32,553 bases of DNA from Chloracidobacterium sp. CP2_5A (GTDB lineage: Bacteria > Acidobacteriota > Blastocatellia > Chloracidobacteriales > Chloracidobacteriaceae). The position numbers were made by a program, and so were the translations under genes. Location of the stretch: contig NKPT01000040.1 in assembly GCA_002254845.1 (NCBI GenBank), positions 1 through 32,553 of the forward strand, written 5' to 3'. Positions 9,477 to 12,851 of this stretch are shown piece by piece. Within the stretch, counting starts at the first letter, position 1. Every line of letters begins with the position of its first letter. The notes beneath the pieces were generated by a model. That model saw only the letters and a program-made list of their open reading frames with translations, was not told where the DNA came from and did not search any database.

Positions 9477-9536
9477 GGAGCGACCGCTTGTCGCGCCAGC
9501 GCTTTTCCGCAGGCGATTTTTCTAAGTGGTCGCTCC
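9477..9536. repeat. 9-bp perfect inverted repeat spanning the 3' end of the bactofilin gene
   Basis: GGAGCGACC at 9477-9485 is repeated in inverse orientation as GGTCGCTCC at 9528-9536, with 42 nt between. The right arm is inside the last codons of the bactofilin gene. This is the only structure seen in the 104-bp convergent gap between the aspartate kinase and bactofilin genes. It may act as a bidirectional 3' structure, but there is no clean hairpin plus U-run, so the role is uncertain. Confidence 0.35.
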
Positions 9537-9950
9537 CGTCGCGGCTTCCGGCGCGGGTTGCCCTTTCTTGCCCTTGCCTTCCTTGACCGGGGCTGGCGCC
9601 GGCGGCTCATTGGGGTCAACGCCGACCTCGATGACGCAGTTGCCAAAAATGGCGGTTGGCTGGTCGCCGTTCGAGCCTTTGACCTCGATAGAGCGTCCGG
9701 TGATGGTTGTTTGGTCGCTGATGCGCCCTGACAGCTCGATGGTATCGGCGTCTATCCGCCCGGAAATCTCGCCTTGGGAGTGGAGCTTTTCCACTTTGAC
9801 AGTGCCGTGGACGGCGCCAGTCGCGGCGATCATCAGGGTTGGCGCATGAAGCTCGCCGCTCACTTTGCCGCTGACGGTGACTCCGCACGTTGACTTCAGT
9901 GTGCCGGTCACTTCGCTGCCTTCTTCAACGGTGGTCAGTTTCTCCGCCAT
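9522..9950 (-). CDS. Bactofilin family cytoskeletal protein
   Basis: A 142-residue bactofilin (DUF583/PF04519 type). The family polymerises without nucleotide into filaments that scaffold cell-shape, polarity or envelope proteins. The core (residues 8-110) is a run of short hydrophobic/glycine beta-helix rungs: GSEVTGTL, GVTVSGKVSGEL, GAVHGTVKVEKLHSQGEISGRI, IELSGRISDQTTITGR. A Pro/Lys-rich disordered tail follows (112-142), which is typical of the family. The start at 9950 gives MAEKLTTVEEGSE, the usual short N-terminus before the core, although an earlier in-frame ATG exists at 10013. It lies 59 nt downstream of the pentapeptide-repeat gene and is probably the last gene of a three-gene unit. 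Confidence 0.9.
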   Translation of the reverse strand: MAEKLTTVEEGSEVTGTLKSTCGVTVSGKVSGELHAPTLMIAATGAVHGTVKVEKLHSQGEISGRIDADTIELSGRISDQTTITGRSIEVKGSNGDQPTAIFGNCVIEVGVDPNEPPAPAPVKEGKGKKGQPAPEAATGATT

Positions 9951-10009
9951 GACGTGTCCTCGCGATAAGGGGGTAAGATGCGAAAAGGCAAAAGCCGAGT
10001 CGATTGGGG

Positions 10010-11263
10010 TCACGCCGTTTCGGTTTTGAGCCGCAGCACGCAGCCCGGCTCAAACGCGAAGTGGGTGTGACCGGCCGGTTGCTTGACTGTCGCGCGAACT
10101 GATCCGGTTGAGCCGACAATGATCCGGCGCGCGCCGCTGATCCCCGGCGAGGCGTCGGAGGCGAATCGTCCGTGAACGACCAGGATGCCGCTGCCATGGA
10201 CTTGGCAGCCGTCAAGCAGTCCCTCGCGGCCGATGATAAGCTGGGCGCCCTGTCCGAGGGTAATGTTGCACTTCAGGAAGCGACCGTCCACTTCGACGAT
10301 CGAATCGGCGTCGAATTCGAGCGAGGCGTCGCGCAGCACGTCGCCATGGCCGAAGTAGCGCCGGTTGGTTGGCGCCGGGGCGACCGCCACGGCTTGCGGC
10401 GATGCCGTGCCGCCGTCCGTCTTGCCGTTGAGAAAAGCGGCCAGTCCCGCCGCCGGGATAAGCTGAGAGCCGTCGCCGGCAACGCTAAAATCCACCTCAT
10501 CCACTTCCGCGCCATCCGCCGCCTCGATGGAAAAGTCGCTGCCGTAAAGATGCGTGCGACTGAACTTAGCCCCTTTGAGGCGGGCGCCCTGAAAGGTGGC
10601 GTGGCGACAATCAGCGTCTTGCAGGCTGACTTGCGAGAGGTCGGCGCCCTCCAGGACGGCTCGTTCCAGCTTTGCGCCGGAGAGGTCCGCGCCGGGCAGG
10701 GCCGCGCGGCGCAGCACAGCGTCCCGCAGGTTAGCGCCGGTTAGCAACGCTTCCTCGAAGTTCGCTGATTCAAGGATAGCGTTTTGAAAGTCCACGGCCG
10801 TGAGATTGGCGCCGCCCAGATAGGCGTTGCGCAAATCGGCATTGGCGAAGTTGGCGTTTTCAAGCGTGGCGACGCCCAGCTTGGCATCAACAAGCTGGGC
10901 GGATGGGAGGCGCGCGCCGGTGAGGTCCGCGCCTTCGAGGTTGGCCCCTTCGAGATTCGCCCGCGACAAATCGGCTCCGCGCAAGTTGGCGCCTTCCAGG
11001 TTGGCGCTTTCCAAATCGGCTCCGCGCAAGTTGGCGCCTTCCAGGTTGGCGCGAACCAAAAAGGCATCGCGCAAGCTGACGCTGGCTAGGTTGGCGCGTC
11101 GGAGAGAGGCTTCCTCCAGGTTCGCCCCCTCAAGGTCGGCACGACGCAGGTTGGCGTTGTCTAAGTTAGCTTTTGCCAAGTCGAGCTCGCGCAGGTCCGC
11201 TCGCTCCAGCGATTCGCCGCGCGCCACTCGCTCAATCACTTCTTCAAAGGTGAACTCAGGCAT
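10010..11263 (-). CDS. Pentapeptide-repeat protein with bactofilin-like C-terminal domain
   Basis: A 417-residue protein. Residues 20-245 are nearly continuous pentapeptide repeats of the A(D/N)Lxx type, predicted to form a right-handed quadrilateral beta-helix of about 45 repeats. A linker (250-305) follows, with a Pro/Ala-rich part. Residues 310-413 contain glycine-spaced hydrophobic rungs (EVDGRFLKCNITLGQGAQL, IIGREGLLDGCQVHGSGI, LVVHGRF) that resemble a bactofilin core. The start at 11263 has an AAAGGGG 8-10 nt upstream. Its position directly before a true bactofilin gene supports a related structural role, possibly as a co-polymer or adaptor. Function is inferred from architecture only, and no enzymatic motif is present. 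No signal peptide is visible, so it is probably cytoplasmic. A recent internal DNA duplication is described separately. Confidence 0.85.
   Translation of the reverse strand: MPEFTFEEVIERVARGESLERADLRELDLAKANLDNANLRRADLEGANLEEASLRRANLASVSLRDAFLVRANLEGANLRGADLESANLEGANLRGADLSRANLEGANLEGADLTGARLPSAQLVDAKLGVATLENANFANADLRNAYLGGANLTAVDFQNAILESANFEEALLTGANLRDAVLRRAALPGADLSGAKLERAVLEGADLSQVSLQDADCRHATFQGARLKGAKFSRTHLYGSDFSIEAADGAEVDEVDFSVAGDGSQLIPAAGLAAFLNGKTDGGTASPQAVAVAPAPTNRRYFGHGDVLRDASLEFDADSIVEVDGRFLKCNITLGQGAQLIIGREGLLDGCQVHGSGILVVHGRFASDASPGISGARRIIVGSTGSVRATVKQPAGHTHFAFEPGCVLRLKTETA
10967..11052. repeat. Internal 45-bp-period duplication in the pentapeptide-repeat gene
   Basis: A 41-bp segment at 10967-11007 recurs identically at 11012-11052, giving a 45-bp period. 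That is exactly 15 codons, or three pentapeptides. The perfect identity at DNA level, against the diverged neighbouring repeats, suggests a recent expansion. It keeps the frame and adds turns to the beta-helix (around residues 73-100). Confidence 0.8.
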
Positions 11264-11345
11264 GGAGAAACCCCTTTCGCCGTTTTCTCAAATGTGGTGG
11301 GCCGTGCCGCCCAGTTTTCATGCAGGCGTCGCCGTTGGGCGTTGT

Positions 11346-12851
11346 TCAGGAACGACGCTCATCCGCCACATAGCGGCGCAGTCGCTCAATACGCTTCTCA
11401 AACGACAGTCGCTGAATTTCGTTAGCCAACTCAATCGCGCCCAGCTCCGCCAGAAGGACGTTAATCTGAAGCTGCGTTTCCTGGCGCGCTTGACGGTAAA
11501 AGCGGCGATCCTCGGCAGCCGAGGGATTGCTGGACTCTTCTGTCGTGGCAATCTCATAGGCCTCGTGCGCGTCCTGCAAGTCCCGCGTCAGCTGTTCCAG
11601 TCGCGCCAGCAAGCCGTCCCGCCCGCTCTGCACCGCGCCGCTTTCCAGCTGCTGTTGATAGGACTTAAATTTTTCGACAATTTTTTCAGCTAGCCAGATG
11701 GGCAGCCCGGTAGCCACGGCGAGGTCTTCCTTCGCCCCCACCAGGAAGCTCTCGATGGTGATCAGCCCGGCGCGATAGAGCTTGTCAATGGTTACTTTGC
11801 CGACTTCAGGAATCTGCTTGAGCAAGGAGTTGACGATCATTCCCTCGGACTGAAGCGTGCTGTCGTCAATGACGAAGGTGGCCGGGAGCAACTCCGTCAG
11901 CGTCTGGTAGCTGTGCAAAATGCGCTCCCGCAGCTCTCCGCCAACCAGGCCCTCGCGCGACGCCCGCGCCTCCGACAACAGCCCTTCAAAGTCATGAACG
12001 GCGTCGCTGACATCCTCCATGCTCATCCCCAGGGCTGACTTGCCGAGACTGCTAATGGCCGGCTGGCACATTTCCAGCCACTCCTTGCGGGCGGCCCCGG
12101 CCCGCAACTCGATCATGAAGGCCTTGACCGGACGAATGTAGTTCGCCGCGATTTCAGAGAAAAGCGTCCGAACCTCTGTCTGATCGGTCGCCACCGCCGG
12201 CGCGGCGTCCTCTTCAAAGTCATCGGAATCGCCGCGCGACAGGATGCTCTCAAAGGCGTCGTCAAAGCCTTCCAGATCGTCGTCATCGTCAAGACCGAGC
12301 CGCGTTCCGTCGGTCGCCGCCGCGCCCGTCGCTTCAGGGCGATCGCTCTGAGCCATGGGAATGTCGAAATCGGCCGCATCCAGGTCAGCGCTTGGATCGC
12401 TTACATCCAGTCCGGCTCGTCCGGGCGACGCCTCAAGCCGCGCCCCGACGCCCAGGCCGACTTCCTCGACGAGGCCAGCGGTCGCCGCCTCGCTCGCCAC
12501 ATCCGCCGGCATCCGCGATGATGCGGCCAGGGCGTCCGCCGCGCCCGGCGGCTCAGCCAAGCCGGGCATCAAAAAGTCGGCTTCGTTGGTCAGCGCGCCA
12601 GCGCTCGGCTCAGGCGCATCTTCCTCTGCCTCGTCAACGCTTGGCGTTTCGGGCACCAGCGCGGAGGCGGGCGGCTGCGTTGCAACTGGCGGCGCGATGG
12701 GCGGCGGCTCTGGATCCGACTCTACTGGCGGCGACCAAGGGGCCGGACTCGCCGTCGGCAACGGCGGCGGGTCCGGCGGAACGTAGGCGGGAGCTGATGT
12801 AGGGGGCGGTTCCTCTTTTTTCTTGCCAAAAAAGCGATCGAAAAAACCCAT
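11346..12851 (-). CDS. Pro-rich protein with helix-hairpin-helix domain and C-terminal coiled coil
   Basis: A 501-residue cytoplasmic protein, first in the bactofilin unit. It starts MGFFDRFFGKKKEE, an amphipathic basic start of a kind often seen in membrane-associated proteins, with AAGGG just upstream. Residues 14-205 are low-complexity, rich in Pro, Ala, Asp and Glu, and probably disordered. Residues 215-340 form a conserved-looking helical region (TLFSEIAANYIRPVKAFMIE, then a helix pair containing MEDVSDAVHDFEGLL). Residues 345-397 match a helix-hairpin-helix (HhH_5-like) element (IPEVGKVTIDKLYRAGLITI, DLAVATGLPIWLAEKIV). Residues 405-501 are charged and helical, probably coiled coil. HhH elements often bind DNA non-specifically, so a link between DNA and a bactofilin scaffold is conceivable, but this is inference. 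The exact family is not recognised. Confidence 0.75.
   Translation of the reverse strand: MGFFDRFFGKKKEEPPPTSAPAYVPPDPPPLPTASPAPWSPPVESDPEPPPIAPPVATQPPASALVPETPSVDEAEEDAPEPSAGALTNEADFLMPGLAEPPGAADALAASSRMPADVASEAATAGLVEEVGLGVGARLEASPGRAGLDVSDPSADLDAADFDIPMAQSDRPEATGAAATDGTRLGLDDDDDLEGFDDAFESILSRGDSDDFEEDAAPAVATDQTEVRTLFSEIAANYIRPVKAFMIELRAGAARKEWLEMCQPAISSLGKSALGMSMEDVSDAVHDFEGLLSEARASREGLVGGELRERILHSYQTLTELLPATFVIDDSTLQSEGMIVNSLLKQIPEVGKVTIDKLYRAGLITIESFLVGAKEDLAVATGLPIWLAEKIVEKFKSYQQQLESGAVQSGRDGLLARLEQLTRDLQDAHEAYEIATTEESSNPSAAEDRRFYRQARQETQLQINVLLAELGAIELANEIQRLSFEKRIERLRRYVADERRS

Follow-up and report, generated by a model that had tools for sequence, protein, structure and literature searches.

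The 32,553-nucleotide stretch analysed here, referred to as the window, is contig NKPT01000040.1 of Chloracidobacterium sp. CP2_5A; Chloracidobacterium is a photosynthetic hot-spring acidobacterium. The window carries on its minus strand a unit of three genes, called here hhh, pent and bac in their order of reading, which appear to encode one nucleotide-free protein scaffold. An earlier note, made from the sequence alone, had described a three-gene minus-strand unit, and all three open reading frames (ORFs) were confirmed. The orthologues of bac align from the ATG at 9950 (MAEKLTT...), which is therefore probably the start of the gene rather than the GTG at 10013; the intergenic gaps of 82 and 59 nucleotides (nt) follow from this start and agree with the spacing first reported. 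Pattern scans for promoters and terminators around the module gave nothing useful. The genes and their predicted domains are listed in Table 1.

Table 1. Genes of the module and their assigned or predicted domains, in window coordinates.
Feature	Position	Strand	Description and basis
hhh	11346-12851	-	First gene, 501 amino acids (aa); ORF; orthologue leads the unit in 14/14 complete loci
hhh, candidate membrane-targeting N-terminus	12807-12851	-	MGFFDRFFGKKKEEP, hydrophobic and basic; putative, from the alignment pattern
hhh, Pro-rich acidic linker	12183-12806	-	Variable length; conserved acidic motif near its end (LEGFDDAFESIL in the window); alignment
hhh, CheA-P1/Hpt-like four-helix bundle	11880-12182	-	Residues 224-324
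hhh, RadA/UvrC-type helix-hairpin-helix (HhH)	11634-11837	-	Residues ~339-406
hhh, long helical hairpin	11349-11624	-	Residues ~410-501; AlphaFold2 model of the domain, helices at 187-215 and 221-246
pent	10010-11263	-	Second gene, 417 aa, pentapeptide-bactofilin fusion; ORF
pent, HetL-like pentapeptide beta-solenoid	10529-11221	-	Residues ~15-245; PF00805 and HetL alignment
pent, Ala/Pro-rich linker	10364-10489	-	Residues 259-300; predicted local distance difference test (pLDDT) and linker sequences
pent, bactofilin-fold beta-helix	10013-10363	-	Residues 301-417; AlphaFold2 and structural alignment
bac	9522-9950	-	Third gene, divergent single-domain bactofilin; PF04519 match
bac, bactofilin core	9681-9935	-	PF04519 match

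The three genes are inherited together. When pent was searched against 58 relatives, full-length orthologues were found in three Blastocatellia families (f1, f2 and f6); the pent orthologues are 47-96% identical. All 14 loci with the three genes on one contig, drawn from three families of this class and one metagenome-assembled genome (MAG) of another class (Bpl_9, L054), keep the order hhh-pent-bac on a single strand, with gaps of 8-246 nt; a fifteenth locus, counted outside the 14, breaks off inside pent at a contig end. The adjacency of the three families, proposed in the earlier note as a test, thus extends well beyond one genome and to several families. The genes flanking the module are common to close relatives only and differ between families. 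A larger operon was rejected, as the comparison of flanks across loci gave no fourth conserved gene and none follows the unit. The three proteins are strongly correlated in their pairwise identities (r 0.91-0.96), a result for which common ancestry alone accounts in part.

The distribution of the module is narrow. Of 396 genomes broadly sampled from the phylum, 10 contain the C-terminal domain of pent, as does 1 of 41 in the class of the distant MAG; every examined locus with visible neighbours also carries hhh and bac. A search of the whole collection with hhh, which detects fairly close relatives only, returned 10 loci, eight of them with the full module, one cut by a contig end and one a paralogue. 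The MAG of the other class (isolate Bpl_9; L125 / L054, G348) has a listed contamination of 6%, and its copy may reflect a transfer or a stray or contaminant contig. No plasmid match indicating plasmid-borne spread of the pent C-terminal domain was found.

The product of bac is a bactofilin, as the earlier note had it, matching PF04519 with E 1.4e-11 and 44.9 bits (curated cut-off 27.9) and the profiles of 6ria and 2n3d with E 2.8e-6 and 3e-6, respectively. It is a divergent one: the module bactofilins match PF04519 with E of about 1e-11 to 1e-14, most other bactofilins of the class with 1e-20 or better. In six of the seven Chloracidobacterium genomes bac is the sole PF04519 match. A canonical bactofilin is found in one of the seven (G005:C1:2631111-2631401) and was not found in the other six (G000-G004, G006), which suggests that it was lost in these. 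The canonical bactofilins among its relatives mostly begin with MRFGK, MKFGN or MFGKR, close to the membrane-targeting consensus MFSKKKK (PMC12448750). The module bactofilins begin with MAEK, MSD or MPE, and the hydrophobic/Lys motif of most canonical relatives is missing. Such a peptide is usual but not universal in bactofilins, and its absence is no bar to membership of the family.

The N-terminal domain of pent matches PF00805 (E 4.5e-62) and has the A(D/N)LXX repeats of a right-handed quadrilateral solenoid. An AlphaFold2 model built on nine orthologues has a mean pLDDT of 89.6, and its residues 3-239 superpose on HetL (3du1) with Z 33.5 and 1.1 Å over 223 residues (VIA-align), well above the Z of about 20 obtained with Qnr and MfpA. 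The solenoid is acidic, with a net charge of -8 in the window and of -7 to -14 across all lineages.

In the model, residues 301-417 of pent were confirmed to have a bactofilin fold. They align in VIA-align with the Thermus thermophilus bactofilin 6rib (Z 15.1, 2.0 Å, 101/101 residues), Caulobacter crescentus BacA 2n3d (Z 13.9, 1.9 Å, 101/103) and 6ria (Z 13.7). The best 50 Foldseek rows for pent were solenoids only, and the bactofilin match emerged in the VIA re-alignment. The second bactofilin core that had been suspected at about residues 310-413 is thereby borne out with a confident predicted fold. The assignment rests on structure, because profile comparisons were weak or empty: the C-terminus of pent scores below threshold against PF04519 (E 0.07-0.12; 13.8 bits, cut-off 27.9), six of ten orthologues give a match with E no higher than 5 (the strongest at 0.014), and the domain profile found no match by sequence among solved structures. 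We therefore call the domain bactofilin-fold and do not file it under PF04519. It is intact and strongly conserved along its full length. The idea of a solenoid grafted onto a bactofilin helix was correct as to both domains but not as to their continuity: a disordered Ala/Pro linker, predicted with pLDDT below 50 at residues 283-299, lies between the two helices and makes them separate bodies.

The conserved part of hhh, residues 224-501, was modelled with a pLDDT of 89.4. Its first domain (residues 224-324) superposes on the CheA P1 domain 1tqg with Z 12.2 and 2.8 Å over 99 residues. Since helical bundles can reach a Z of about 12 by chance, the profile match to CheA P1 (E 8e-4), independent of the fold comparison, carries weight here. 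The phospho-histidine is missing in 30 of 31 homologues, where the column holds Ser, Lys, Arg or other residues (Ser267 in the window); the sole histidine in this column is that of the Bpl_9 copy. Because the histidine is not conserved, a function of this Hpt-like domain in phosphotransfer is unlikely. The HhH that follows matches RadA by profile (E 3.3e-7) and aligns structurally in VIA with Z about 9; HHH_5 scores below its cut-off on the window protein (23.5 against 27 bits) and above it in the homologues L054, L092 and L094. Pfam gave no match to a ParB or ParBC domain in hhh. The earlier description of a Pro-rich protein with an HhH and a coiled coil is incomplete, as it overlooked the main conserved domain, the degenerate Hpt-like bundle.

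Across lineages the N-termini of hhh (MGFFDRFFGKKK, MGILDKIFKSLWGK, MSFLSRLFGRKKK and others) consist of a hydrophobic stretch that is usually followed by basic residues, and by helical moment they are more amphipathic than shuffled sequences in three of the six lineages tested. A client protein can substitute for the membrane peptide of BacA (PMC12448750). The peptide is missing from bac, and a putative adaptor encoded next to it has an N-terminus of this type; together these suggest that the membrane anchor moved from the bactofilin to hhh. The earlier note had proposed tethering to DNA or membrane; as the module bactofilin is without its own membrane-targeting peptide, we infer that membrane tethering through the N-terminus is the better supported of the two.

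Relatives of hhh also occur outside the module. Two paralogues with another N-terminal helical part lie directly upstream of a response-regulator gene (L085:6821-8353, or C58:42820-44352 in its own genome, before L085:8350-9021) and of a larger receiver-domain protein (L053:7170-8843 before L053:8973-10601). A 1229-aa protein (L086:7067-10756, own genome C158) ends in a pseudo-Hpt/HhH/hairpin unit like that of hhh, preceded by about 940 residues without a Pfam match, and similar proteins are present in G004, G010 and G017. In another acidobacterial family (L092:6334-7836 and L092:7843-12835), the hhh relative adjoins genes that are FHA- and TPR-like, judged by sequence.

Taken together, we consider it about an even chance (roughly 0.5) that this one conserved cassette specifies a three-part bactofilin scaffold with a bac filament, pent arms and an hhh anchor/adaptor. 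That the genes share a scaffold is supported by the order and strand observed in all 14 loci while the flanks differ. This linkage is an observed result, as is the absence of the bac peptide and of the Hpt histidine; the domain anatomy is predicted with good confidence, and the assembly is an inference that draws on the fold, the gene linkage and two precedents, BacC (PMC10259793) and BacNOP-PadC (PMC5703909). In this scaffold bac would be the bulk filament subunit, and pent would enter the filament through its C-terminal bactofilin domain, while the flexible linker would keep the acidic solenoid at a distance from the filament, as an arm for binding or spacing. The hydrophobic/basic N-terminus of hhh would anchor at the inner membrane in place of the peptide missing from bac, its long Pro-rich tether would bridge the gap between membrane and filament, and its C-terminal part (the degenerate CheA-P1-like bundle, HhH and hairpin) may bind the filament or pent and dock further partners.

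Three observations weigh against this proposal. The polymerisation phenylalanine, F130 in the C. crescentus bactofilin (PMC12448750) and taken as F105 in T. thermophilus from the title of the 6ria entry (F105R mutant), appears to correspond to Leu410 in pent in an approximate mapping that relies on a weak profile alignment and on ranges anchored at their ends, so that entry of pent into the filament is not assured. The sequence-based case for homology of the pent C-terminal domain to bactofilins is weak, with an hhalign probability of 7-28%. Finally, in the other three of the six lineages, the window's own included, the N-terminus of hhh is no more amphipathic than shuffles. A bolder form of the proposal, in which plain and pentapeptide-armed subunits alternate or mix in one filament while the pseudo-Hpt/HhH adaptor anchors it and links it to signalling or DNA, as an undescribed class of cytoskeleton in a branch of the Acidobacteriota, is put forward tentatively and remains rather doubtful.

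Other explanations were weighed against the three-part scaffold. The cassette could organise the chromosome, with the HhH binding DNA, the acidic solenoid mimicking DNA or binding gyrase in the manner of Qnr and MfpA, and the bactofilin positioning DNA or a topoisomerase, as BacNOP-PadC positions ParAB (PMC5703909). The RadA/UvrC type of the HhH and the negative charge of the solenoid in every lineage fit such a role. We regard it as unlikely, given that the nearest solenoid is HetL, with Qnr and MfpA far lower, that NCBIfam Qnr-type matches of pent fall far under their cut-offs, and that ParA, ParB and topoisomerase genes are not in the conserved unit; HhH domains, moreover, also bind proteins. 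Quite unlikely, too, is a role of pent as a cap, raised in the earlier note beside co-polymerisation, that docks at the end of a bac filament by one bactofilin face and, without the phenylalanine, halts growth and sets length. The apparent Leu at this position, in the same approximate mapping, would suit a cap, as would a solenoid able to obstruct one filament end, but the long flexible linker makes steric blocking improbable and the bactofilin domain of pent is intact and strongly conserved throughout.

A further reading takes hhh as a signalling dock, whose degenerate Hpt-like domain would bind receiver domains or a chemotaxis-like array while the bactofilin merely localises it. The likeness to CheA P1 in both fold and sequence agrees with this, and two paralogues stand directly upstream of response-regulator genes; the neighbours of other paralogues, however, are unrelated, the module has no receiver-domain gene, and the histidine is not conserved, which argues against phosphotransfer, so that we hold this reading to be very improbable. 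Hardly credible is a mere co-inheritance of neighbours without a common complex, as the linkage persists where all flanks have changed (three families and one distant MAG) and bac shares one fold with the C-terminal domain of pent. Two functional ideas were rejected. Chlorosome positioning does not fit the distribution of CsmA, which is present in Chloracidobacterium and G008 and not in the module-bearing G007, G009, G010, G011, G017 and G348. A substitute for MreB does not fit either, as a strong MreB is found in 10 of 11 module genomes, the remaining one being a fragmented MAG.

To our knowledge, bactofilins are widespread and few of their partners are known. The cassette offers a defined set of three proteins, two with the filament fold and one with a rigid arm, in which a distinct adaptor has seemingly taken over the membrane anchor. 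With it, the co-polymerisation of hybrid bactofilins and the placement of filaments without their own membrane peptide become testable in a reconstituted system. In most Chloracidobacterium genomes, moreover, the only PF04519 bactofilin found is that of the cassette. A literature search, with subscription papers largely outside it, found no paper that mentions both bactofilin and pentapeptide repeat, and agrees with the earlier note, which knew of no described system with these three parts. Hybrid bactofilins and bactofilin adaptors are already known; for the combination of the three parts we found no earlier account.

At the level of single domains, hhh 224-324 resembles CheA P1 (1tqg, 2ld6) in its four-helix bundle and detectable sequence similarity, but is without the phospho-accepting histidine and the kinase domains. 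The solenoid of pent has the fold of HetL (3du1) and other pentapeptide-repeat proteins, whereas the solved HetL, Qnr and MfpA are without a bactofilin domain. The T. thermophilus and C. crescentus bactofilins (6rib, 6ria, 2n3d) share their fold with the C-terminal domain of pent and their sequence family with bac; unlike them, pent carries a fused solenoid, and its domain is too divergent for PF04519. Among whole systems, Rhodomicrobium vannielii BacC is a hybrid bactofilin whose assembly depends on a plain partner (PMC10259793). Like pent, it is a second bactofilin with an extra domain; it is without the polymerisation phenylalanine, and its filament localisation needs the plain bactofilin. 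Its extra domain is cadherin-like and C-terminal, whereas that of pent is an N-terminal pentapeptide solenoid on a linker, and the consulted text mentions no HhH/Hpt-like partner. In Myxococcus xanthus, PadC is a linked adaptor of BacNOP (PMC5703909). The consulted text mentions no pentapeptide fusion, and the folded part of PadC, a ParA-binding ParB/ParBC domain, differs from the Hpt-like bundle, HhH and hairpin of hhh. As in the present module, the bactofilin genes there adjoin that of an adaptor whose N-terminus is long and disordered and whose C-terminal part is folded, and the BacNOP-PadC linkage is likewise conserved within its group.

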